In this document: positions 3,124 to 55,837 of the stretch, piece by piece
Numbering within the stretch: the stretch's first letter is position 1
Layout: each line of letters starts with the position of its first letter
Assembly (NCBI GenBank): GCA_021604525.1
Contig: BQJD01000002.1
Coordinates: 150,282 to 214,281 of the forward strand
DNA from: a marine bacterium B5-7
Lineage (GTDB): Bacteria > Pseudomonadota > Gammaproteobacteria > Arenicellales > CAJQKF01
Length of the DNA stretch: 64,000 nucleotides
Direction: 5' to 3'
Position numbers and translations under genes: made by a program
The notes under the pieces: model-generated
Told to the model about the DNA's origin: nothing
The model's database searches: none
Seen by the model: the letters and a program-made list of their open reading frames with translations, nothing else

Positions 3124-4491
3124 ATGAATAAACCCTCCATTCTCATCGTCGACGACGAACCGGATATTTGTAACATTATCGGCGACATACTCGATGACGA
3201 GGGCTATGAAACGACCAGCGCCGAGAATGCCGACAATGCCGACAAGCTTTTTAAAGAACGCGACTTCGACCTGGTGTTGCTCGATATCTGGATGCCAGGC
3301 ACCGACGGTATCACCCTGTTGAAACAATGGATGAGTGAAGGCTGCAATGCATCAATCATCATGATCTCCGGCCACGGCACGGTGGAAACCGCAGTTGAGG
3401 CGATTCGCATTGGTGCATATGACTTTCTCGAAAAACCGCTGTCAACTGCAAAATTGCTGGTGACGGTTGAGCGCGCCCTCGCCAATCGTGAACTCCTGCT
3501 CGAAAACCGACGTTTGCGTACCCGGCTTGAACCTGCTTCCGAACTCGTTGGCAGTAGCGGGATCATGCAGACCTTGCGTCAGAAAATTGCCCGCTACGCA
3601 GCAACTGATGGCTGGGTTTTGATTCAGGGCGAGGCGGGGTCAGGCAAGGGAGTGACAGCGCGTAGCCTGCATCGTCAAAGCCCACGCGCCAAAGGCTCGT
3701 TCGTGGAAATCAACCTGGCGGCGTTGCCCAGCGAAAATATTCCCCTGCAGCTCTTCGGCAGAGACGACGATGAAATTGTTGCAGGTAGCCTCGAACGCGC
3801 TGATGGCGGCACGCTGGTACTTGACGAGGTTGCCGATCTCGACGCATCACTACAGGCGAAACTTTTAAGCGCACTTGAAGAACGCAGTTTTTATCGGGTC
3901 GGCGGTCGCGAAAAGGTGACAATCGATGTGCGCGTTATCGCTACCACCAATCAGGACCTAACCGCCAAGATCGAAGTCGGTCAGTTCCGTCGTGACCTGT
4001 ACGACCGTCTCAATCAGCTTCCGCTATTCGTGCCGCCACTACGCGAACATCGTGAGGACGTTCCGGAGCTTGTCGATGCAGTCGTCCGTATCGCCATGGA
4101 TGCCGAGGGTTTCCCCTATCGGCGATTTTCAACCAGCGCTCTCAACGTGCTGCGTAACCATCGCTGGCCGGGAAACGTACGCGAACTGCAAAACCTTATT
4201 CACCGGGTACTACTCACCAGTGAGCATGAGGAGATCAGTAGCAATGACATAACCAGTGAGCTCGACGGGCGTGGTGCGAATGATACGAGCAGCACGCCGA
4301 CGTCAGCATTCAACACAGATCTGCGTGAGGCACGTGAGGCGTTTGAACGGGCATACCTGCTCTATCATCTGGAGCAGGCCGGCGGCAACATGACTGAACT
4401 CGCCAATCGTACCGGCCTTGAAAGAACCCACCTGTATCGCAAGCTGAAAGGCCTCGGCATCGACACCAAGGGCGCCAGACGCGCTTCATAG
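3124..4491 (+). CDS. ntrX: NtrX-family response regulator, AAA+ type, without the GAFTGA loop
   Basis: A 455-residue regulator. The receiver domain (1-120) has the acidic pocket at 10-12, phosphoacceptor Asp54 and Lys104. The AAA+ domain has Walker A GEAGSGKG (169-176) and Walker B LVLDE (231-235). The C-terminal Fis-like helix-turn-helix is near 415-448. The L1 loop that normally carries GAFTGA and touches sigma-54 is replaced by a short acidic stretch (about 211-222, FGRDDDEIVA). A conventional sigma-54 activator needs that loop, so this protein may regulate another RNA polymerase form or act as a repressor. It follows its partner kinase directly and precedes trkA by 26 bases. Confidence 0.9.
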   Translation: MNKPSILIVDDEPDICNIIGDILDDEGYETTSAENADNADKLFKERDFDLVLLDIWMPGTDGITLLKQWMSEGCNASIIMISGHGTVETAVEAIRIGAYDFLEKPLSTAKLLVTVERALANRELLLENRRLRTRLEPASELVGSSGIMQTLRQKIARYAATDGWVLIQGEAGSGKGVTARSLHRQSPRAKGSFVEINLAALPSENIPLQLFGRDDDEIVAGSLERADGGTLVLDEVADLDASLQAKLLSALEERSFYRVGGREKVTIDVRVIATTNQDLTAKIEVGQFRRDLYDRLNQLPLFVPPLREHREDVPELVDAVVRIAMDAEGFPYRRFSTSALNVLRNHRWPGNVRELQNLIHRVLLTSEHEEISSNDITSELDGRGANDTSSTPTSAFNTDLREAREAFERAYLLYHLEQAGGNMTELANRTGLERTHLYRKLKGLGIDTKGARRAS

Positions 4492-4517: not shown

Positions 4518-5894
4518 ATGAAGATTGTCATCCTGGGCGCTGGCCAGGTCGGCGTATCGATGGCCGAGATCCTGTCAAGGGAAAATAACGATATCACTCT
4601 GGTGGATATCGACGATGCGGTACTCACCGGACTTCAGGATCGTCTCGATATCAATACGGTACATGGCAGCGCTGCTTACCCTGATGTGATGGAACAGGCC
4701 GGTGTCGGCGATGCCGACCTGTTACTGGCAGTTACCGACAAGGACGAAGTCAATATGGTGGCCTGTCAGATTGCCTGGAGTTTGTTCAAGACGCCCAAGA
4801 AGATTGCTCGGATCCGCTCATACGAGTATCTCAGCCATCCAGAGATATTCGATAACGCATCAGTACCGGTGGATGTGATCATTAGTCCCGAGGCACTTGT
4901 AACCGAGCAGATATTGCGACTGATCGAACATCCGGGCGCGTTGCAGGTGGTGGATTTCGCCGGTGGCAAGATTCGTCTGGTCGGCCTTAGAGCGTATTCA
5001 GGCAGCCCATTGGTAGGTCATCCGCTGCGCGAGCTACGTGATCATTTGCCGGGTATCGATACCCGCGTCGCTGCAATTTATCGCCAGGATAGCGCCATTA
5101 TTCCAACCGGTGATACTGTCATCGAACCTGACGACGAAGTTTTCTTCGTTGCCGCCAGTGCCGACATATTCGCGGTGATGAACGAGCTTCGACAGGCCGA
5201 TAAAGCCGGTCGCAAGATTATTCTCGCAGGCGCAGGCAATATCGGTTTCCGGCTTGCCCAGGCCCTTGAAAAAAACAATTACCAGATCAAGTTGATCGAG
5301 TTTAACGAACAGCGGGCACGCTACGTCGCCGAACGACTCGAAAAGACCGTGGTACTGCACGGCAACGCCGCTGCCGAAGAATTGCTGCAACAAGCGAACA
5401 TCGAGAACGCAGAAGTATTTTGTGCGCTGACCAACAAGGATGAAGCCAATATTCTGTCCGCGATGCTCGCCAAACGGCTCGGTGCTCACCGGGTGATGTC
5501 GCTGGTCAATAGCTCCGCCTATGTTGAACTGGTCCAGAGCACGATGCTGGACATCGCATTATCTCCGCGGCTTGCTACCATCGGTACATTACTCACTCAT
5601 ATACGCCGCGGAGACGTTGTCCAGGTGGCTTCTCTCAGACGTGGCGCGGCCGAAGCCATCGAAGCCGTCGCCCACGGCGATGCAAGCACCTCACGGGTGG
5701 TCGGCCGACGGGTCGCGGATATCGCCCTGCCTCGAGGTGCGTCACTGGGTGCAATCCTGCGTGGCGAGGAGGTATTAATTGCCCATGACATCACCGTAAT
5801 AGAGCCAGAGGACCACGTCATCGTGTTCGTAGTCGACAAAGCAGATATTCCAAAAATTGAGCGCCTGTTCCAGGTGGCTGTCACCTTCATTTAA
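4518..5894 (+). CDS. trkA: Trk potassium uptake regulatory subunit TrkA
   Basis: A 458-residue cytoplasmic protein made of two similar halves. Each has a Rossmann RCK_N domain (GAGQVGVS at residues 7-14, and a second GAGNIGFR motif near 237) followed by an RCK_C domain. TrkA binds nucleotide and gates the TrkH channel. Length and duplication fit the family. trkH starts 35 bases downstream, so the two complex subunits are encoded together, and both may be cotranscribed with ntrYX upstream since no terminator is visible between them. Confidence 0.95.
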   Translation: MKIVILGAGQVGVSMAEILSRENNDITLVDIDDAVLTGLQDRLDINTVHGSAAYPDVMEQAGVGDADLLLAVTDKDEVNMVACQIAWSLFKTPKKIARIRSYEYLSHPEIFDNASVPVDVIISPEALVTEQILRLIEHPGALQVVDFAGGKIRLVGLRAYSGSPLVGHPLRELRDHLPGIDTRVAAIYRQDSAIIPTGDTVIEPDDEVFFVAASADIFAVMNELRQADKAGRKIILAGAGNIGFRLAQALEKNNYQIKLIEFNEQRARYVAERLEKTVVLHGNAAAEELLQQANIENAEVFCALTNKDEANILSAMLAKRLGAHRVMSLVNSSAYVELVQSTMLDIALSPRLATIGTLLTHIRRGDVVQVASLRRGAAEAIEAVAHGDASTSRVVGRRVADIALPRGASLGAILRGEEVLIAHDITVIEPEDHVIVFVVDKADIPKIERLFQVAVTFI

Positions 5895-5929: not shown

Positions 5930-7381
5930 ATGCGGCACAAGGTGGTTCTCAAGATCCTCGGCGTATTACTGACGCTGTTCTCGACGACTCAACTACCGCC
6001 GGTCATCGTTGCGTTGATATACGATGAACACAGTATCAAGGCATTTGTGCTGAGCGGTCTGTTAACCCTGTTGACCGGTATACTGTGCTGGTTACCTGTC
6101 AGAAACTTCCATCGCGACCTCAAGTTTCGCGACGGATTCCTTGTGGTAGCGTTGTTCTGGACCGTGGTGGCGCTGTTTGGATCACTGCCTTTTCTTCTGA
6201 CGGAAGAAGTTCATATCAGCGTGACAGACGCCTTCTTCGAATCCATGTCGGGTCTCACCACCACCGGCGCGACGGTCATGACCGGCCTGGACGAACTGCC
6301 GCGCTCGATCCTTTACTATCGCCAGCAGCTTCAGTGGCTGGGCGGCATGGGCATTATCGTCCTTGCAGTCGCTGTCATGCCGATGCTCGGCGTCGGTGGC
6401 ATGCAGCTATATCGCGCCGAAACGCCGGGACCGGTAAAAAACTCCAAACTCACACCGCGTATTACCCAGACGGCGAAAGCATTATGGCTTGTTTACACCG
6501 GCCTGACTGTCGCCTGTGCGCTCGGCTACTATGTTGCAGGCATGAATGTTTTCGATGCCATAGGTCATAGTTTCGCGACAATCGCCAGTGGCGGATTTTC
6601 CACACATGACAGCAGCCTTGGTTTCTACAACAGTCCGCAGATTGCCATTGTCGCCACAGTGTTCATGATTTTCTCAGGAATAAATTTCGGGCTACACTTC
6701 ATGGCCTTCAGAAATCTCAGTGTGTTCACATATTTCCGTGATCCCGAAGCACGGGGCTACCTGCTGTTTGTATTTGCCATTATCTGTATAACTCTGGCGA
6801 CTCTGTTGGCGACAAACGCATATTCCACAATTCCCGAAACTATCTGGCAAGGTATCTTTCAGGTGGTTTCCATGGGTACTACCACCGGTTTTGCCACCAC
6901 TGGCTTTAGTTGGTGGCCGACATTCCTGCCGGTAATGCTGGTGATAATGAGCGCGGTTGGCGGCTGTGCCGGGTCCACTTCAGGCGGCATGAAAGTTATT
7001 CGCCTGATCCTGTTATACAAGCAGGGCAGACGCGAGATCCATCAACTGATTCACCCCCAGGCGGTCATCTCCATCAAACTCGGTAACAAGCCAGTACCCA
7101 ACCAGGTCATCAATTCGGTATGGGGATACCTGGCACTATATATTCTGTCTTACGTCACCATCTCGATTGCCATGTCCGCAACCGGTGCCGATCTCATTAC
7201 GGCTTTCTCATCGGTCACTGCCTGTTTGAACAACCTTGGCCCGGGTCTCGGCGAGGTAACCGATAACTATGCTTCGGTGACAGTTGCAGGCAAATGGTTG
7301 CTGTCATTCACCATGCTGCTCGGGCGTCTTGAGTTGTTTACCCTGTTGGTATTGTTTTCGCGAAGCTATTGGCGAAGCTGA
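5930..7381 (+). CDS. trkH: Trk potassium uptake transmembrane subunit TrkH
   Basis: A 483-residue polytopic membrane protein of the SKT (TrkH/KtrB) family. Glycine-containing pore-loop segments typical of the potassium selectivity filter are visible, including GLTTTGATV, ATIASGGFST and a TTTGFATTG stretch, with the fourth in the C-terminal third. The complete Trk channel is this subunit plus TrkA, encoded just upstream. Start ATG 5930 is preceded by an AAAAAG-rich segment rather than a strong Shine-Dalgarno. Confidence 0.95.
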   Translation: MRHKVVLKILGVLLTLFSTTQLPPVIVALIYDEHSIKAFVLSGLLTLLTGILCWLPVRNFHRDLKFRDGFLVVALFWTVVALFGSLPFLLTEEVHISVTDAFFESMSGLTTTGATVMTGLDELPRSILYYRQQLQWLGGMGIIVLAVAVMPMLGVGGMQLYRAETPGPVKNSKLTPRITQTAKALWLVYTGLTVACALGYYVAGMNVFDAIGHSFATIASGGFSTHDSSLGFYNSPQIAIVATVFMIFSGINFGLHFMAFRNLSVFTYFRDPEARGYLLFVFAIICITLATLLATNAYSTIPETIWQGIFQVVSMGTTTGFATTGFSWWPTFLPVMLVIMSAVGGCAGSTSGGMKVIRLILLYKQGRREIHQLIHPQAVISIKLGNKPVPNQVINSVWGYLALYILSYVTISIAMSATGADLITAFSSVTACLNNLGPGLGEVTDNYASVTVAGKWLLSFTMLLGRLELFTLLVLFSRSYWRS

Positions 7382-12858: not shown

Positions 12859-13770
12859 ATGACCCGTCATTTTTTAACCCTCAACGATCTTTCTGCTATT
12901 GAGATCAGATCCCTGCTCGATCGTGCCATCGAGCTGAAGCGCATGCTTGCTGAGGGTGAGATTTATGAACCAATGCGCAACCGTGCACTGGCGATGATTT
13001 TCGAGAAGTCATCGACTCGAACCCGGGTCTCCTTCGAAGTTGCCGCGATTCACTTTGGCGGTACCGCAATTTTTATCTCGCCTAATGACAGTCATCTCGG
13101 ACGTGGCGAACCGGTAGCGGATACGGCGCGGGTATTGGCCTCGATGACAAGCGCGGTGGTGATGCGAACACACAGTCATGAGCGCGTAGTGGATCTGGCT
13201 CGCCATTCCAGCGTACCGGTCATCAACGGCCTGTCCGATTTGTTCCATCCATGCCAGTTACTGGCCGACCTGCTTACGTATCTCGAGAATCGCGATACCA
13301 TTGAAGACATCAAGGTGGCCTGGATTGGCGACGGCAACAACATGTGTCACTCCTGGGCCAATGCCAGTAAGCTGATCGGCTTCGATCTCGCTATTGCAAC
13401 ACCTGACGGTTACGAACCGCAAACCGATATCGTCACAGATAATAGCGGACGAATTATCCTTGGTAACGATCCGCTGGAGATGATTAAGGACGCCGATCTG
13501 GTTGTTACCGACACGTGGGCAAGCATGGGGCAGGAAGAAGAAAAACAACAGCGCATGCAGGCATTCAGCGGTTTTACTGTTGACCAGAACATGATGAACC
13601 AGGCTAAAGATAACGCTCTGTTCATGCACTGCCTGCCGGCCTACCGCGGCTACGAAGTTACAGCCGATGTTATCGAGGGGCCGCAGAGCGTGGTATTTCA
13701 GCAGGCTGAGAATCGCCTGCATGCGCAAAAGGCGCTACTTGAATTTCTTCTCAAAGAAAATCTTCCGTGA
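12859..13770 (+). CDS. argF: ornithine carbamoyltransferase
   Basis: About 303 residues. It makes citrulline from ornithine and carbamoyl phosphate. The carbamoyl-phosphate motif SSTRTRVSFE, the HPCQLLADLLT motif and the ornithine-site FMHCLP motif are all present. The start is fixed at ATG 12859 by a strong Shine-Dalgarno GAGGTGA at 12847-12853; a GTG at 12850 lies inside that site. The stop overlaps the next start as GTGA, coupling it to an ABC ATPase. Confidence 0.96.
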   Translation: MTRHFLTLNDLSAIEIRSLLDRAIELKRMLAEGEIYEPMRNRALAMIFEKSSTRTRVSFEVAAIHFGGTAIFISPNDSHLGRGEPVADTARVLASMTSAVVMRTHSHERVVDLARHSSVPVINGLSDLFHPCQLLADLLTYLENRDTIEDIKVAWIGDGNNMCHSWANASKLIGFDLAIATPDGYEPQTDIVTDNSGRIILGNDPLEMIKDADLVVTDTWASMGQEEEKQQRMQAFSGFTVDQNMMNQAKDNALFMHCLPAYRGYEVTADVIEGPQSVVFQQAENRLHAQKALLEFLLKENLP

Positions 13771-14810
13771 ACCCCCTGTTAAAAGTCGAGGGGATTACCT
13801 GCGAATACGATGACCAGGTTGCGGTCCGCAACCTGGGTCTTGAAGTCGAGGCTGGTTCCCTGGTCTGCCTGCTTGGCCCGAGCGGCTGTGGCAAGACTAC
13901 TGTGCTGCGTGCCATCGCTGGCTTTCATGCCCTGTCGCGAGGCGAGATTCATATCGACGGTACGCTGGTCTCGTCGACCCGCTTCACCCTCGCTCCCGAA
14001 CAGCGGCACGTGGGCATGGTATTCCAGGAACATGCCCTGTTTCCTCACATGAACGCCAGCGAGAATATCGCTGCCGGTATTCGCAAGCTGCCTGCCGATG
14101 AGCGATACCAACGTATTGAGGAGATGCTGGAAAAGGTGGGGCTCAGCGGCTTTGCCGACCGCTACCCCCATGAGATGTCTGGCGGGCAGCAACAGCGTAT
14201 TGCCCTGGCACGCGCACTTGCGCCGGGACCGCACCTGTTACTCATGGACGAACCGTTCTCGAGTCTCGATCTCGAACTTCGAGAAAAGCTTGGCATTGAA
14301 GTCCATGATCTACTCAAACGTGAAGGAATCACCAGTGTATTGGTGACCCATGACCAGATGGATGCATTTGCGCTGGCCGATTTCGTCGGTGTCATGCACG
14401 CCGGTGAAATCGTCCAGTGGGATACGCCCTACAATCTGTATCATGAACCACGCACACGCTTTGTCGCTGATTTCGTCGGCGACGGAGTTTTTGTCGACGG
14501 TCTGATTCGTGATCGACACAGCATTGAAACAGAGCTCGGCATCGTCGAAGACAGCGCAATAGAAAATTTTCTCAACGACGCAGAAGTAGATGTACTGCTT
14601 CGTCCCGATGATATCGTTCCATGTGAATCACCCAGGGTACGCGCCCGCATCGTTCGCAAGGCATTCAAGGGGGCGGAGATTCTTTATACCCTGCGTCTCG
14701 CCAGCGGCACCCGGGTATTGTCGCTGTTTCCCTCCCATGCCGATCACGCAGTCGGCGAGGAAGTGGGCGTGTGTCTCGATGCCGAACACCTGGTGGTTTT
14801 TCCGAAATAG
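13767..14810 (+). CDS. FbpC-like ABC transporter ATP-binding protein, orphan
   Basis: A 347-residue ATPase with Walker A GPSGCGKT, signature MSGGQQQR, Walker B LLLMDEP and the switch His in VTHDQMDA, then a C-terminal regulatory domain of about 120 residues. It resembles ferric iron and other binding-protein-dependent importers (FbpC/PotA group). GTG start 13767 overlaps the argF stop. No permease or binding protein lies nearby on this strand, so its partners must be encoded elsewhere; the substrate is unknown. Confidence 0.85.
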   Translation: MNPLLKVEGITCEYDDQVAVRNLGLEVEAGSLVCLLGPSGCGKTTVLRAIAGFHALSRGEIHIDGTLVSSTRFTLAPEQRHVGMVFQEHALFPHMNASENIAAGIRKLPADERYQRIEEMLEKVGLSGFADRYPHEMSGGQQQRIALARALAPGPHLLLMDEPFSSLDLELREKLGIEVHDLLKREGITSVLVTHDQMDAFALADFVGVMHAGEIVQWDTPYNLYHEPRTRFVADFVGDGVFVDGLIRDRHSIETELGIVEDSAIENFLNDAEVDVLLRPDDIVPCESPRVRARIVRKAFKGAEILYTLRLASGTRVLSLFPSHADHAVGEEVGVCLDAEHLVVFPK

Positions 14811-14886
14811 CGTTTGTCGTCCCACGCAAGTCCACGCCTTGTAACGAAATCAATCAAATTTCCGGGCTACGTTTTATTCATGTGAC

Positions 14887-14903
14887 GAAGGCACAACGCC
14901 TTC
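14887..14903. terminator. hairpin between convergent ABC ATPase and ankyrin genes
   Basis: A 6-bp perfect stem GAAGGC/GCCTTC with an ACAAC loop touches the stop codon of the ankyrin gene. There is no T-run on either side, so termination is only possible. Confidence 0.3.
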
Positions 14904-15612
14904 AGTAATCCTTTGTTAATATTTCAACGATTGATGTGAATCCACGTTCACGGGCATGTTCCAGAACCGTGACTCCATCGTTATCGGTGATGTCAGGGTC
15001 GGCTCCATTTGCCAATAAAAGCTCAACAATCTGCTGATGTTTAATCCCGCCATCAGACAAGATCACCGCTTCCATCAGAGCAGTCCAACCAAGATTATTG
15101 ACATGATTTACATCAATTTTAGATTTTTCAAGTAGTAGCTTTACAGTATCTACGTGACCTTTTTCGGCAGCAGGAATGAGTGCTGTGCCACCATAGTAAT
15201 TGTATATGTCTGGTCTGGCCCCGGCATTTATCAAGTGAGTCAAGGCTTCATTCATACCGTGCGCACCGGCATATAAAAATGCGGTCTGGTCTATAACATC
15301 TGAAGATTTTGTTTCATCGTAATAATCAACACTGGCACCCAGTTCGATTAACAGTCGCAATGCTCTTATGTTGTTTTGCATCGTAACGACCAAAACAGCC
15401 GATCGTCCGCGCCGATCTACAACATCAACGCTCCCCCCTTCCTCAATGATCTGCCGCAACTGTTGCTTGTCACCATCGATGGATGATGTAAGCACCAGGT
15501 TAAAAGTATCACTGGCTATACCCATTGCCTGAGAGTTACACCCCGCTCCAATCAAGAAAAATAGAATGCATCTTCTCGTATTCAAAAACGAATTTCTAAA
15601 TAAACCGGCCAC
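14902..15612 (-). CDS. exported ankyrin-repeat protein
   Basis: A 236-residue protein with an N-terminal signal-like segment (about residues 14-30, with a Cys at 25 in a poor lipobox), then about five ankyrin repeats of about 33 residues (for example GRSAVLVVTMQNNIRALRLL, TALIPAAEKGHVDTVKLLL and DGVTVLEHARERGFTSIVEIL). It is probably a periplasmic or lipoprotein binding module; partner unknown. It is the leftmost member of the minus-strand accessory gene string, though I see no attC-like site after it. Confidence 0.82.
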   Translation of the reverse strand: MAGLFRNSFLNTRRCILFFLIGAGCNSQAMGIASDTFNLVLTSSIDGDKQQLRQIIEEGGSVDVVDRRGRSAVLVVTMQNNIRALRLLIELGASVDYYDETKSSDVIDQTAFLYAGAHGMNEALTHLINAGARPDIYNYYGGTALIPAAEKGHVDTVKLLLEKSKIDVNHVNNLGWTALMEAVILSDGGIKHQQIVELLLANGADPDITDNDGVTVLEHARERGFTSIVEILTKDY

Positions 15613-15653
15613 TTGATCATCTCACCTGGCAAAACAATATAGTTAGACTGAAC

Positions 15654-15726
15654 TGCAAGCGCCTCGCATCAACGACAAAATACGTAAGCGGCGGATTGAG
15701 AGTCCAACTTCAGCCTCCTGTCAGGC
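15654..15726 (-). repeat. attC-like recombination site A (after the VOC gene)
   Basis: 73 bases beginning 8 bases after the VOC stop codon. Read on the minus strand it has an R''-like box GCCTGAC, a central region, and a GATGCGAGGC motif before a decayed R' box. The GATGCGAGGC motif is identical to site B and the length matches sites B and C. R' (GCTTGCA) departs strongly from GTTRRRY, so recombination is probably lost. Confidence 0.5.
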
Positions 15727-15733
15727 ACGACAA

Positions 15734-16075
15734 CTAGGCCGGGCGGTCATGTTTTGGTTGGTAAACACCCAATGGACCTCCTCCAGGCAACGTGATATTG
15801 ACAAGACGCCCCCAGGGTTCTTCATGAATGTCGGTACACGGTACATTGAGCTCGGTCATCCGTGAAATGAAGTTCTCTATGTTTTCACACATCAAATAGA
15901 ATTCGTGCTTACCGTTTGATTCTGCAGGATGGAAAGCTGCTTCCACGGGAGGCATTCCAAAAACGAGCCAACCGCCACCTGCATCCACATGTTTAAATTT
16001 CAGAACATCTCGAAAAAACGCACGGTCCACTTCCGAGTTGGTACTGTAAATAATCGCGTGTGCACCAATAATCAT
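15734..16075 (-). CDS. VOC-superfamily (glyoxalase-like) protein
   Basis: A 113-residue single-domain VOC protein. It has the paired beta-alpha-beta-beta-beta pattern, the DRAFFRDVLKF opening helix, an EFYLMCENIE strand and a C-terminal GRLVNITLPGGGPLGVYQP strand usual in glyoxalase/bleomycin-resistance proteins. Substrate is unknown. A good AAGGAG precedes the ATG. It sits between a weak site and attC-like site A, and so reads as a gene cassette. Confidence 0.8.
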   Translation of the reverse strand: MIIGAHAIIYSTNSEVDRAFFRDVLKFKHVDAGGGWLVFGMPPVEAAFHPAESNGKHEFYLMCENIENFISRMTELNVPCTDIHEEPWGRLVNITLPGGGPLGVYQPKHDRPA

Positions 16076-16162
16076 GTGAATCTCCTTGGTTGTCGTAGAT
16101 ATTAGCTCAGTAATGTTTTACACCTATCGTCCCACACCAGCTGCAAACTACGCGCATCTGAA

Positions 16163-17170
16163 TCATGCGTAAATATAATACGAATACCTTTTTATACGCC
16201 CTTCTTCAACGCTTGGTAGGTAGTCTTCATCTGCTTCCCTAATCCAGTTGTCACAAATTAACTCTGCTCCTTCTGACACATATTCATCACGAAGTGAAAG
16301 CGCGGTTTCCTTAACTCTGGGCCAGAATTTAAGAAATAAATCTGAGTAATCTACAGTGTCATACCGAAGATTAAGATTATTTAGTGATTTCGCGACTCGA
16401 GTGTCCTCGCTACCAAGGCACGATAATTCGCTTTCGTTTTTTATGCGATGCTCTATCAGAATACAAAGCTGCCCACCCGGTTTAATAGATTTGAGGATCG
16501 ACGAAACGGTTTTATCCATATCGGATACCCAGTAGATAGAATCGATCGAGATGGCGGCATCGAAGGAATTGACAGGCAACTCAAGTGAATTGAGGTCGGC
16601 CTGAATAAAATTGATTTTGCCCCGCTTATCCTGTGTGCGGTTACATGCCGTTCTTATTGCAGATTCGGAATAATCAATGCCAGTTACAAACGCCTCAAAC
16701 TTGTCAAACACATACTCAGACAAGCCCCCTGCGCCGCAACCAAGATCCAGCAAATGATGATCAGGCAGTAGTTGTAATCTGGAAAGCAAATCATCCAGAC
16801 ATTCCATATCAGTCTGCCCCTCCTGAGATCGGTCCTCGCCGAATACAGCCTCGCAAAACCTGGAATGTGCCTTACTCGACTCTGCAAGATCGTAGAGCTT
16901 TTGATAGTAATACCAGTACAGATCGGGGCGTTCTGCGTAATATTCGACTGCCAGAGGACGTCCAATGGCGGTTAAATGATATCCATCGTCATTGCCCAAT
17001 ATCAGGTTTTTACTTTCAAGATCGGTAAAAGCGGTTGTCCAATCTTCCTTGAACACCCAATATCTATCTGAGCGCTCTTCAAGGATTTTTCGCGAAGCTG
17101 TAATCCCATGAGATGAGGCTTCTTCTATGCTAGCGAGTAACTGAATTTCGGCCTCAGAAAGATTCATCAC
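16163..17170 (-). CDS. SAM-dependent methyltransferase with an N-terminal winged-helix-like domain
   Basis: 335 residues in two parts. About 1-75 looks like a winged-helix segment (helices around EIQLLASIEEAS and DWTTAFTDLE, then a LILGNDDGYHLTAIGRPLA wing). About 110-260 is a class I methyltransferase with motif I LLDLGCGAGG, an acidic motif II (FVTGIDYSES) and FDAAISIDSIYWV. Product and substrate are unknown. Base composition is clearly more AT-rich than its neighbours, indicating transfer. It is the cassette between site B and the VOC gene; the site expected after its stop (16080-16160) is not recognisable. Confidence 0.75.
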   Translation of the reverse strand: MMNLSEAEIQLLASIEEASSHGITASRKILEERSDRYWVFKEDWTTAFTDLESKNLILGNDDGYHLTAIGRPLAVEYYAERPDLYWYYYQKLYDLAESSKAHSRFCEAVFGEDRSQEGQTDMECLDDLLSRLQLLPDHHLLDLGCGAGGLSEYVFDKFEAFVTGIDYSESAIRTACNRTQDKRGKINFIQADLNSLELPVNSFDAAISIDSIYWVSDMDKTVSSILKSIKPGGQLCILIEHRIKNESELSCLGSEDTRVAKSLNNLNLRYDTVDYSDLFLKFWPRVKETALSLRDEYVSEGAELICDNWIREADEDYLPSVEEGRIKRYSYYIYA

Positions 17171-17280
17171 AGAGTCCCCTTCTTTAAACAGAACGCTTTG
17201 ATACTAACCCATAATAATGTTTGGTTGAAACGATGTTGGTTAGGGCCGATTTGAGATAATTGAGGGATAATTTTCTTATC

Positions 17281-17352
17281 GACTAATGCCTCGCATCAGC
17301 GGTCAGCAAAGCGCTTGTCGGATACTGATCCGTCTGCATACATTTGTCAGAC
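17281..17352 (-). repeat. attC-like recombination site B (after the cupin gene)
   Basis: 72 bases, starting 9 bases after the cupin stop. On the minus strand: R'' box GTCTGAC (6 of 7 to RYYYAAC), left arm TGCAGACGGA, a variable loop, right arm CCGCTGATGC, then R' box ATTAGTC. The arms TGCAGACGG and CCGCTGATGC are nearly complementary with a small insertion, as in attC sites. Confidence 0.6.
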
Positions 17353-17361
17353 ACGTGTTAT

Positions 17362-17796
17362 CTAGTCAACAATCTCTGCACTATCCCATTTCTCACTTAT
17401 ACCGAGCCAGTCAATGATTCCTGCTGTATTTCCATCTTCATCTAAATACTGGATCGGTCCATGGCTGATAAACAAGTATTCAGTAGGTTCTGGAAAATAG
17501 GTTTTTTCATGGATGACTCCGTTTGGCTCATATCCGTAGTCACCAGCCACGGCGGTAATGCCCCCGTTTTCTTTCCCGCCTCTAACCTCGACTTTCCCTT
17601 TCAATACAAAATATTCGGCGGAACTAATATGCTTATGAGGCGGAACGGAACCACCCGCTATAGTTCGAAACAATACTGCCCAGGTACCTGTAATGGAACA
17701 TATCCTCAGCAACTTGAAATCATACCCATCTCTAAGGCGCTTCCACGGTAAATCCGTATTGGACACAAATACATCTGCAATTTCCGGGGTTGTCAT
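17362..17796 (-). CDS. cupin protein, ChrR/dioxygenase-like
   Basis: A 144-residue cupin. The VPPHKHISSAEYFVLKGKVE strand holds the His-x-His and Glu metal ligands, and a later His is in NGVIHEKTYF. It resembles the Dke1 / dihydroxyacetophenone dioxygenase-like cupin group, which uses iron; a ligand-binding role is also possible. A strong AAAGGAGAC site precedes the ATG. It lies between site C and site B as a separate cassette. Confidence 0.78.
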   Translation of the reverse strand: MTTPEIADVFVSNTDLPWKRLRDGYDFKLLRICSITGTWAVLFRTIAGGSVPPHKHISSAEYFVLKGKVEVRGGKENGGITAVAGDYGYEPNGVIHEKTYFPEPTEYLFISHGPIQYLDEDGNTAGIIDWLGISEKWDSAEIVD

Positions 17797-17817
17797 TTTT
17801 GTCTCCTTTGATTAAAA

Positions 17818-17890
17818 ACCTATCGCGACGCATCAGCGTCGAATTGAATGCCTTACGAGCGCTCCATCCGACTGCATGCACTTGTTAAAG
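17818..17890 (-). repeat. attC-like recombination site C (after the GNAT gene)
   Basis: 73 bases beginning 15 bases after the GNAT stop codon. On the minus strand: R'' CTTTAAC (6 of 7), left arm TGCAGTCGGA, loop, right arm TTCGACGCTGATGC, R' GATAGGT (6 of 7 to GTTRRRY). The left arm is complementary to the right arm apart from a two-base insertion and one mismatch, which matches attC architecture well. Confidence 0.62.
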
Positions 17891-17905
17891 AGTATTGGTT
17901 CGATA

Positions 17906-18364
17906 TCATCTGGGCAGTAATTTCTGCATGTAAACACGATTGTAACCATGTTCCTCTCTTCGATCCGTTTCCGTGTATCCAAGATTTTTATAGAATTCGA
18001 TATTCTCCACCATGCTCTCGTGAGTGTATAAGTCCAGTTTCTCAAAACCCTGATTTTGCGCCTCGGTTTCGGCAAACTGAATCAGGCGTTTGCCTAGCCC
18101 CTTCCCCTGTTGTTCAGGGTGGACTGCAACGTTATCCAAAAGAAAGCCTGTCTGCGTTCGAACAAGTACCAGGACGCCAACTATCTGTTCAAATTCGGCT
18201 ATGAAAACGGAATGCTGCTGAACTGCCTGACCGTAATCATCGAGCATGGGACCAGGCGGCTTTCCGATTCGTACAATGTAATGATGGTAGGCCGCTTCAA
18301 CGCATTTCTGTATCGAAGGGGCATCCGATATCTTGGCTTTTCTCATGACGGGATCATCATTCAT
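17906..18364 (-). CDS. GNAT-family N-acetyltransferase
   Basis: A 152-residue acetyltransferase with the full GNAT fold. The acetyl-CoA loop VHPEQQGKGLGKRLI is near residues 86-100, and the C-terminal IEFYKNLGYTETDRREEHGY block is typical of small-molecule or protein acetylating members. Acceptor unknown. GNAT genes are common integron cassettes, in line with the attC-like sites on both sides. Its start codon is only a few bases from site D, so it has little room for its own leader. Confidence 0.87.
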   Translation of the reverse strand: MNDDPVMRKAKISDAPSIQKCVEAAYHHYIVRIGKPPGPMLDDYGQAVQQHSVFIAEFEQIVGVLVLVRTQTGFLLDNVAVHPEQQGKGLGKRLIQFAETEAQNQGFEKLDLYTHESMVENIEFYKNLGYTETDRREEHGYNRVYMQKLLPR

Positions 18365-18367
18365 AGG

Positions 18368-18424
18368 CTCTAACGCATTTGTAAAGTGAATCTGTTTGGC
18401 ATCAGTTTGAACGGGTGGTTATAC
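18368..18424 (-). repeat. attC-like recombination site D (after the sulfotransferase gene)
   Basis: 57 bases, the usual length of the shortest attC sites. On the minus strand the R'' box is GTATAAC (6 of 7 to RYYYAAC) and the R' box GTTAGAG (6 of 7 to GTTRRRY) within the classic GCGTTAG context. The inner arms pair only partly. It lies 46 bases after the sulfotransferase stop and 3 bases before the GNAT start. Confidence 0.6.
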
Positions 18425-18470
18425 GACTTTTCTACGAGACAATTCTTTCGGCCAGTGGTTGTTTTCTGCA

Positions 18471-19097
18471 CTATATCTTGCCGGTTACACGATCCCAAAA
18501 TTCTGCCCGATCATTAGTCCGTGGAAACTCTTCATCCGGAACCGACACCTCAAGGAACTCACAAAGCGGACCCCATCCCTCTTTCACTTCATATTCGAGC
18601 AATTGACTGGCCGGGATTGACTCCTTTACTGCTTCATTGTGCGCCACAAAACCACGGATTAAACCTTCGCGATCGAGACCGTCAGGAAATCCTGTCCTGG
18701 CGATAACACCACTACCCATTTCAACCCATGCCTTCATTTCATCTGGCGCGTTGTCTCTATAGGCAATCAACTTGTAAATCGTTGCAATAAAACTGTCTGC
18801 CCAGCTCTCGGGTGTGCGCTTGGTCAGGATAAACCTGGCCGATGAATACACCGCAATCAATTCGCGAAAAAAACCGGCAGTGGGCCAGTCGACTGCGCTT
18901 TCGTAGCCGTTGTAAATGGCTTGCCAATCCGGGTGCCCACTCAACGCTGCCGACCAAAGGGGTACGTGCACTGGCATTTGATGAAGAACTTCTTCCATGT
19001 GGTAACAAGGACCGAACCCGAGCCGAGTGATTGCGAGTTTGAGAGAATAAGTGCCTGTACGCCCAACGCCTGCGCCAATTACCTGAATAGCCATCAT
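18471..19097 (-). CDS. sulfotransferase family protein (Sulfotransfer_4-like)
   Basis: A 208-residue P-loop protein. The N-terminal GAGVGRTGTYSLKLAI segment is the 5'-PSB loop that binds PAPS in the family, and ARFILTKRTPESWADS is the 3'-phosphate binding segment. Proteins of this type resemble the eukaryote-like sulfotransferase_4 group; the acceptor is unknown. It is the rightmost gene of the minus-strand cassette string and would be the most integrase-proximal cassette. Confidence 0.82.
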   Translation of the reverse strand: MMAIQVIGAGVGRTGTYSLKLAITRLGFGPCYHMEEVLHQMPVHVPLWSAALSGHPDWQAIYNGYESAVDWPTAGFFRELIAVYSSARFILTKRTPESWADSFIATIYKLIAYRDNAPDEMKAWVEMGSGVIARTGFPDGLDREGLIRGFVAHNEAVKESIPASQLLEYEVKEGWGPLCEFLEVSVPDEEFPRTNDRAEFWDRVTGKI

Positions 19098-19426
19098 GGT
19101 TCTCCGTAAAATATGTTGAATATTGGTTCTTGATGTTCGAGTGAGACTGATAACGTCATTGAACCCGATGAAGACTTTAGTAGCTGCAGCTTTGTCCTCT
19201 CGTTGACCGATCCAGACTGGAATACATCATCACCCGTTGCATCTACGCGAGCGATCAGAAGTGATGACATGGATACTTTGCGTGATCATCCTGGCTACCT
19301 GATCATGAAAGTTGAGATTTATCATGCACAACCATTTGCGCTGCCGGCTATCGAAAATTCTCGATACGAGAAAGCCCGGCATATAGCCGGGCTCGTATCT
19401 GGTTACGTCATTACTTGTTTACAATG
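19098..19426. other. gap between cassette string and rpoH
   Basis: No gene is seen. It holds the rpoH terminator near 19365-19397. I looked for an attI site or remnants of an integrase here and found none. Confidence 0.5.
19365..19397 (-). terminator. rpoH terminator hairpin
   Basis: A perfect 8-bp stem AGCCCGGC (19373-19380) / GCCGGGCT (19386-19393) with an ATATA loop, extended by TACG/CGTA. On the minus strand it is followed by TTTCTC, a weak T-run, 30 bases after the rpoH stop. Confidence 0.65.
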
Positions 19427-20281
19427 TCAGGCGGCAAGTACCGTCTTCATGTTATCCATTGCCTTCTTTTCGATCTGTCTGATTCGCTCGGCAGACACGC
19501 CATACTCATCGGCAAGATCGGATAGTGTCGGTTTTTGAGTTTCATCGTTTAACCAACGACGCTGGATAATATCGCGGCTTCTGTCATCGAGGCGCGAAAG
19601 TGCATCACCAAGCATCTGATGTCGCTCGTTCACCTGGTCGACGCGCTCCAATACCCGTTCCGGATCGTAACGATTATCCGCCAGGTAACCTGCCGGAGAC
19701 GGCACCAATTCGTCATCGCTTTCAATCGGATCAAAGCTCACATCGTGACCGGTCAGACGGGATTCCATTTCCTTGACGACTGCGCTATCGACATCCAGTT
19801 TCTCGGCTATATCATCAACTTCGTTCTGCCGCATCCAGCCAATCCGGTTGCGAGACTTGCGTAGATTAAAAAACAGTTTACGCTGCGCCTTGGTGGTCGC
19901 CACTTTGACGATACGCCAGTTCTTGATGACGTAGTCGTAGATTTCCGCACGAATCCAGTGCACGGCAAACGAAACCAGGCGCACGTCGCGTTCCGGATCG
20001 AAACGCTTGACAGCTTTCATCAGGCCAATATTGCCTTCCTGTATCAGATCCTGAATGGGCAGTCCGTATCCCATGAACCCACGTGCCACGCTGATCACGT
20101 AGCGCAAGTGCGATAATACGAGCTGTCGGGCAGCGTCGATATCGTCTTCATCCCGAAGGCGCACGGCCAAGGCACGTTCTTCTTCGGCTGTCAAAATGGG
20201 TGCTTCATTAACCTGTTGCAGATATTGGGACATGCCCTGGCTGCTTTTGGCATCAAGCATCACCGGAAAACTTTGAGTCAT
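19427..20281 (-). CDS. rpoH: RNA polymerase heat-shock sigma factor RpoH (sigma-32)
   Basis: 284 residues. Region 2 is seen in QDLIQEGNIGLMKAVKRFDP and the -10 recognition helix, region 4 as a C-terminal helix-turn-helix (LADEYGVSAERIRQIEKKA). The RpoH box QRKLFFNLRK, specific for this sigma factor and used in FtsH/DnaK control, is intact. The start is ATG 20281, 8 bases after the Shine-Dalgarno AAGGAGGG; upstream in-frame ATGs would bury that site. Gene order ftsY-ftsE-ftsX-rpoH is the classic gammaproteobacterial one. A CIRCE operator overlaps its promoter (separate entry). Confidence 0.96.
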   Translation of the reverse strand: MTQSFPVMLDAKSSQGMSQYLQQVNEAPILTAEEERALAVRLRDEDDIDAARQLVLSHLRYVISVARGFMGYGLPIQDLIQEGNIGLMKAVKRFDPERDVRLVSFAVHWIRAEIYDYVIKNWRIVKVATTKAQRKLFFNLRKSRNRIGWMRQNEVDDIAEKLDVDSAVVKEMESRLTGHDVSFDPIESDDELVPSPAGYLADNRYDPERVLERVDQVNERHQMLGDALSRLDDRSRDIIQRRWLNDETQKPTLSDLADEYGVSAERIRQIEKKAMDNMKTVLAA

Positions 20282-20316
20282 TTGTAAACCCTCCTTCATT
20301 ACATGGCAGGTGCTGT

Positions 20317-20343
20317 TTAGCACTCTACCGCTTGGAGTGCTAC
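20317..20343. promoter_or_regulatory. CIRCE operator (HrcA site) in the rpoH leader
   Basis: TTAGCACTC, nine bases, GAGTGCTAC: 17 of 18 positions of the CIRCE consensus (TTAGCACTC-N9-GAGTGCTAA). It directly follows the -10 element of the rpoH promoter, so HrcA bound here would block transcription start. hrcA is not in the window. Confidence 0.88.
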
Positions 20344-55616: not shown

Positions 55617-55837
55617 CGCGATCCGCAACCTATCATGGCGTCAGTGTCGACCACCGATCCAAAAATGAAAATTCGCGTTAGCCATGATGGATCGATTCCC
55701 AGTCAGCACGATCCCCAGTTTGAATTGCCGATACGGTTGCGTTGTTATCTGTGTCAGGTGTCTTCAAGATAGTTTCCTGTCAGTGGTTTATCGCCGTACC
55801 TTGTCAGGTATCTTGTTGGCAGTGATTAGATTGAGAC

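Follow-up and report, generated by a model that had tools for sequence, protein, structure and literature searches.

The stretch of DNA analysed here (the window, 64,000 bp, positions 150282-214281 of contig C2) belongs to the 4.41 Mb genome of the marine bacterium B5-7 (G000), which is assembled in 119 contigs. In this window the convergent core genes abc and rpoH are separated by a 4.6 kb gap. Six accessory genes with open frames lie in it, every one of them on the minus strand (14902-19097), together with four short stretches, named sites A to D, resembling the attC sites of integron gene cassettes. Four of the six genes carry such a site behind their stop codon, always in one orientation (gnat with C, cupin with B, sulfo with D and voc with A). 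A sequence-only reading of the window had proposed a cassette array or CALIN (cluster of attC sites lacking integron-integrases) without an integrase, possibly old and immobile, between core genes. The flanking core genes and the coordinates and strand of the four stretches were as it had described them; the stretches follow the stops of voc, cupin, gnat and sulfo after 7, 9, 15 and 46 bases, respectively, in agreement with its range of 7 to 46. The features are as follows, with positions in the window:

13767-14810, plus strand: abc, ATP-binding cassette (ABC) transporter ATPase gene; left core flank, behind argF
14811-19426, no strand: outer limits of the presumably inserted stretch; congeners have only 93 and 77 bp here
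14902-15612, minus strand: ank, ankyrin-repeat protein gene (Pfam Ank_2; GC 0.437); array edge, attC behind the gene not detected
15654-15726, minus strand: site A, probable relic with an L'-like box (GTTGATGCGAGGC), behind voc
15734-16075, minus strand: voc, small protein gene, its name read from sequence; no match in Pfam or NCBIfam
16163-17170, minus strand: mtase, S-adenosylmethionine-dependent methyltransferase gene (Pfam Methyltransf_11)
17281-17352, minus strand: site B, attC; R' decayed, L'' and L' boxes kept; behind cupin
17362-17796, minus strand: cupin (ChrR-like) gene, cassette body of site B (Pfam Cupin_7)
17818-17890, minus strand: site C, attC; R' 6/7, L'' and L' boxes kept; behind gnat
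17906-18364, minus strand: gnat, GCN5-related N-acetyltransferase (GNAT) gene, cassette body of site C (Pfam Acetyltransf_7)
18368-18424, minus strand: site D, probable short attC; R boxes GTATAAC and GTTAGAG, 6/7 each; poor hairpin; behind sulfo
18471-19097, minus strand: sulfo, sulfotransferase gene, cassette body of site D (Pfam Sulfotransfer_4)
19427-20323, minus strand: rpoH; right core flank

We are highly confident that this stretch is a CALIN, that is, an integron cassette cluster with attC sites and no integrase; this confidence concerns the identity of the element, not the route by which it arrived. The reading is based on four lines of evidence. First, two sites are recognized by a lineage-specific covariance model, while a third is weak and the fourth a probable relic. 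Second, both genomes of the same genus have an empty site. Third, an integrase gene (intI) stub and attC sites of the same type are present elsewhere in the genome. Fourth, homologues of the sulfotransferase adjoin attC sites in two other genera. The evidence also favours the remainder of the original proposal, namely that the array is old and probably immobile.

The R'' box of attC sites has the consensus RYYYAAC. It is matched at 6 of 7 positions in B, C and D, as had been noted from the sequence alone, and in A as well. Agreement of R' with GTTRRRY is 6/7 in C and D, 5/7 in B and 3/7 in A, in line with the decay that had been read in A and B. The arms TGCAG..CGGA and GCTGATGC, previously ascribed to three sites, are shared by B and C only; A has TGAAG..TGGA and GTTGATGC instead. 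Site A differs by one mismatch from a 13-base word of site B (GCTGATGCGAGGC, a word picked after both had been seen). Allowing at most one mismatch, this word is found in the window only in A and B, and its background frequency is 1 in 405,058 positions. The starts of B and C lie 537 bp apart.

Three covariance models (R1, R2 and R3) were built for this analysis, all trained without letters of the window. Early motif scans retained only perfect R boxes. From 46 candidate sites, 25 were hand-picked for set A1 and 19 for set A2, long sites, odd hairpins and doubtful cases being dropped. The 14 sites of set A3 were picked by eye for likeness to the type of G000, together with some general ones, and their structure was written by hand. 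R1 was trained on 19 sites of arrays that adjoin IntI genes in other genomes. With an E cut-off of 0.005 it recovers 124 sites in 23 of the 27 intI-linked loci. Of these, 105 were not used for training, and the strand of all 124 agrees with the orientation of intI. R1 overlooked motif-scan sites of L094, L095 and L098, which shows its limited sensitivity. R3 is made of these 124 sites and involves no choice by eye other than through R1. R2 is lineage-specific and comprises 14 attC sites, four of them from contig C41 of G000. In its helix 85.5% of the alignment cells are paired, against 27-41% when it is slid by 1-3 columns, and both sides have changed in 8 of 17 pairs; the structure was written from these same sequences. 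Attachment sites of one lineage are described as resembling each other, so that lineage-specific models work (PMC8352920).

By R2, sites B and C are attC sites. Over both strands of the 64 kb window they are ranks 1 and 2 of 8 (B 35.5 bits, E 9e-7; C 26.0 bits, E 3e-4), and the best match besides them reaches 10.5 bits. Site D is fourth with 10.2 bits, and site A is not listed. The first refuting outcome named in the sequence-only reading, no attC covariance match in any of the four sites, did not occur with this model, which was built here. Of the ten places that R2 finds across the 4.4 Mb genome, two are B (E 6e-5) and C (E 0.02). B and C were also aligned globally with one another, with four C41 sites and with sites of L093 and L102, and in none of these 14 comparisons does any of 500 letter shuffles reach the observed score. 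For A and D, aligned to other attC sites in eight comparisons each, 0-5 and 0-39 of 500 shuffles do, respectively. The R''-L''-L'-R' architecture of attC is therefore recognized by a sequence-and-structure model in B and C (R2) and weakly in D, while A is attC by no model. In counting A, and in ascribing the shared arms to three sites, the sequence-only reading was too generous. A CALIN has at least two attC sites close together, and these are found with R2 (B and C), with D in support; the broad models alone would not establish it. A search of Rfam at gathering thresholds returned no match in the window and is uninformative for attC. To our knowledge, Rfam has no attC family.

The sulfotransferase provides evidence from other genomes. 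Eight loci with homologues, from seven genomes besides G000, were considered with flanks of 1.5 kb or less, and attC matches were found beside the homologue in two of them (L174 and L179), which belong to two other genera. The L174 protein, from another family, is the most identical homologue (49%) and the second by E-value. Upstream of it, and on its strand, are two attC matches (35.9 and 22.9 bits), the second of which stops about 170 bp short of the sulfotransferase match. In L179 one match of 29.2 bits and a weak one of 13.8 bits lie upstream of the sulfotransferase, separated from it by about 0.9 kb or more and by another gene. A sulfotransferase homologue (39% identical) is also encoded elsewhere in the genome of the congener G001.

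The search with the abc protein involved 41 genomes, G000 included, two of which (G001 and G002) are of the same genus. In both congeners abc and rpoH are convergent, with a stop-to-stop distance of 93 bp (G001) or 77 bp (G002). Similarity of the window to their DNA breaks off with the abc stop (14810) and returns at the rpoH stop (19427). The loci of 14 relatives were compared. In ten of these abc and rpoH stand together: the two congeners and eight order-level relatives of other families, in which the gap is 1.2-1.7 kb and occupied by other sequence. None of the six window genes has a match at E 1e-6 in the 14 loci, including the ten with a comparable abc-rpoH arrangement; the second refuting outcome of the sequence-only reading, the same genes in the same order in distant relatives, therefore did not occur in this comparison. 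Because the congener gaps are short and the six genes are not there, the stretch was probably inserted in this lineage; its loss from both congeners is the less likely alternative. The claim that the stretch is AT-rich is borne out by five of the six genes, with a GC content of 0.437-0.474 (sulfo, 0.507) against 0.517-0.562 in argF, abc, rpoH and ftsX. A promoter scan gave 10 candidates, compared with 9.0 in shuffles, and is uninformative on expression.

A foreign composition and an empty site are expected of any genomic island. It may therefore be asked whether this is an ordinary island or hot spot formed by illegitimate or homologous recombination, in which the attC-like words arose by chance or belong to terminator-like hairpins. 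Such an origin would agree with the variable gap of the eight order-level relatives, with the poor hairpins and the undetected site A, and with the number of terminator-like patterns (10, compared with 4.7, sd 2.2, in shuffles). However, a structure model scores B and C far above the rest of the window, both match intI-linked attC sites of their own type, the sites lie directly behind the stops of co-directional genes, and attC sites also accompany sulfotransferase homologues in two other genera. We consider an ordinary island very unlikely.

No integrase gene was recognized next to the sites among the open reading frames of at least 70 amino acids at 8-26 kb, and contig C2 has no match to the integron-integrase family TIGR02249 at E 0.001. 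The sequence-only reading had advised looking for intI elsewhere in the genome. In G000 no gene exceeds the TIGR02249 cut-off, and the same is true of its three nearest relatives; an IntI above the cut-off was found in 16 of the 60 genomes searched (G000 included) and in 102 of 237 in the class sample. The best TIGR02249 match of G000 (93.9 bits) is a 67-position piece with a stop. At a lax threshold all 14 control genomes also give matches, none of them over the cut-off. Thus no intact intI of a complete integron was found in G000; attI was not searched for. What it does have is an IntI stub at C65:872-1063, which covers approximately the last 63 residues, contains one stop and is 66-71% identical to the IntI C-terminus of two relatives. 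It is located beside attC sites like B and C: at the end of its contig, about 800 bp away, are a truncated attC and a cassette-like gene.

C65 and C41 share 141 identical bases at their left ends, and the R2 genome scan places attC sites on C41 at 76, 1279, 3430 and 4886. Taken together, C65 (L009, 1-1063) and C41 (L065, 1-4950) contain an IntI tail with a stop, cassette-like genes and at least four attC sites, and probably represent a chromosomal integron remnant split over two contigs. A site of the B and C type also occurs in L093 (2793-2867), where it has the strand of the array that belongs to a full IntI. In the congener G001, attC sites of up to 62 bits are present on contigs C105, C41 and C50 (L151, L152 and L153), and no IntI match was obtained at 1e-60; therefore, loss of intI may be common to the genus.

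The tyrosine recombinase on C76 (a frame of 327 amino acids, with pieces of 91.7 and 70.2 bits) was considered as the missing IntI and set aside: it is 25-28% identical to the IntI of two relatives and has no family match between positions 175 and 235. Its 6.8 kb contig (L010), a mobile-element contig, also carries genes for a DDE-type transposase-like protein, an AAA ATPase-like protein and an IS91-like transposase (gene names on these other contigs of G000, here and below, are read from sequence). The matches on C8 and C26 (28-29% and 24-25% identity) resemble XerC/XerD-type recombinases. The C48 match scores 21 bits.

The shared attC type of B, C and C41 raises a second possibility, namely a CALIN formed by another route: a fragment of the C65/C41 array may have been moved by chromosomal rearrangement rather than inserted by an integrase. 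The several attC clusters scattered in the genome (C75 and C4) are consistent with this. On the other hand, similarity with the congeners is interrupted inside a gap that separates convergent genes, and neither intI nor attI (for which no search was made) nor a core gene was seen to have moved along. A rearrangement appears to be the less likely route, although it keeps appreciable weight.

Several results weigh against the identification as a CALIN. With default filters R1 gives no match in the window. Unfiltered, it gives B 7.9 bits (E 4.6) and D 7.5 bits (E 6), ranks 2 and 4 of 5, which is chance level. R3 places D first of three matches, with 13.1 bits and an E of 0.37, and B second with 8.2 bits (E 6), a score that an unrelated place at 55628 also reaches. 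Site C is listed by neither R1 nor R3, and genome-wide these models list 2 and 6 places in G000, respectively, none of them in the window. Site A fails in R1, R2 and R3, a partial match of 6.1 bits being at chance level. A search for attC between mtase and voc (16076-16162) and behind ank (14811-14901) found none. Six of the eight sulfotransferase homologue loci have no attC match at E up to 1, and 12 loci with GNAT homologues (R2 on 12, R1 on 6) have none nearby; the lone match among the latter is weak (L160, R2 17.9 bits) and 3.1 kb from the gnat match. Moreover, R2 is not fully blind, since its C41 training sites surfaced through a pattern derived from B and C. Two observations stand against this circularity: R1 also found the C41 sites at 1279, 3981 and 4886, and it found sites of the same type in L093 and L102, on the array strand and beside full IntI genes. 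The pattern itself gives 8 matches in the genome, against 0 for its reversed form. Those on C28, C54 and C81 were judged by eye not to be attC and were not listed by R2.

Folding belongs to the same side of the balance. None of the eight strands of A to D folds significantly better than shuffled sequences (z -1.53 to +1.21, with B at -1.53 and C at -0.91; bottom strands -1.53 to +0.26). The L093 site folds at z -5.07, and two C41 sites of G000 itself reach only -1.95 and -1.77. Since the C41 sites also fold poorly, the test separates poorly. These values bear, too, on the possibility that the cassettes are still mobile and can be excised in trans by an outside integrase. The R boxes of C and D, at 6/7, speak for this, and CALIN cassettes can be mobilised in trans (PMC12444791, PMC9668308). 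But no site of the four folds significantly better than its shuffles and R' is decayed in A and B, and we regard continued mobility as highly improbable.

The missing site between mtase and voc may reflect a two-gene or fused cassette, or a site that was lost. Cassette fusion, described as loss of the site between two cassettes (PMC4670013), would fit this pair. The status of ank as a gene cassette is uncertain.

The window array is an addition to an already known class. In bacteria, CALINs reportedly outnumber integrons with intI (PMC9668308), and in Xanthomonas, a genus with widespread intI inactivation, CALINs occur away from the ancestral platform (PMC12444791). Like those, the present array has at least two clustered attC sites at a chromosomal location off that platform, in a genus with frequent breakage or loss of intI; unlike them, it belongs to a different lineage, lies between abc and rpoH, and has attC sites that are weak by broad models. 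Chromosomal integrons with a full IntI are also found in the same order, for example in G007 (L074/L093), where the attC subtype (GCATGCAGnCGGAC / CCGCTGATGC) is that of B and C. G007, in contrast to G000, has an IntI over the family cut-off.

If the stretch is a CALIN, the following history can be proposed. After the split from the two congeners, the integrase of an ancestor would have recombined single-stranded, folded attC hairpins into the abc-rpoH gap, one cassette after another or as a block. The acting enzyme would most likely be that of the C65 stub, or one like it, and the landing place was probably a secondary, attG-type site. Integrases can reportedly insert cassettes at attG sites (Loot et al. 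2024, Nat Microbiol). Insertion of that kind is an entry into the chromosome away from attI; in the window no attG site was identified. The intI gene would then have been lost through deletion and a stop codon. Without integrase there would be no selection on the sites, so that hairpin arms and R' boxes may have eroded, most of all in A, and the mtase-voc boundary would have lost its site or never had one. The reading frames, in contrast to the sites, would have stayed open and been kept by selection, the genes now acting as ordinary chromosomal genes. Which integrase acted, where the cassettes landed and in what order the events took place are inferred here, as are the insertion (instead of a loss in the congeners), the immobility and the selection on the genes. 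The window frames are indeed open, and some cassette genes on C41 look broken, with one alcohol dehydrogenase-like and one methyltransferase-like frame split.

A more specific idea is that a terminator hairpin between convergent core genes served as the landing site of the integrase, that cassettes are domesticated there, and that erosion, once intI is gone, affects the sites and leaves the genes intact. We consider this improbable as it stands; if it were true, attC erosion could serve as a clock for the time of integron death.

The CALIN of the window adds a case of cassettes left in a chromosome after the death of their integrase, in which a lineage-specific attC model recovers eroded sites missed by broader ones. 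As R2 recovers sites that R1 misses, CALIN counts obtained with generic models are possibly too low. The open methyltransferase, cupin, acetyltransferase and sulfotransferase genes may be useful acquisitions. Plasmid homologues are known for gnat (49 records), sulfo (18), cupin (15) and voc (8), all below 60% identity; those of voc are 46-56% identical, some being annotated as extradiol dioxygenase. Cupin matches none of 108 other genomes of the order at E 1e-25, and mtase (E 1e-30) and voc (E 1e-20) match none of 368 other genomes of the class. The listed genomes of that class sample do not include the congeners, so for these two genes it is only the comparison of loci that indicates their absence there.

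Further attC matches in G000 are on contigs C75, C4 and C1. On C4 (L149, C4:8000-16500) a pair at 3570-3630 and 4722-4809 (R2 25.8 and 27.4 bits) encloses an asparaginase-like gene, and a glyoxalase-like gene lies behind the second site. The short contig C75 (L148), with sites at 4315-4374, 6215-6272 and 6663-6721 (R3 17.2, 23.6 and 13.2 bits) between flavin adenine dinucleotide (FAD)-linked oxidase-like genes and a SugE/Gdx-like small transporter gene, is perhaps another array or a binning error. Finally, a single attC-like site is present on C1 (L124, C1:130276-133327) at 1501-1552, scoring 29.4 bits with R1 and 32.8 bits with R3.

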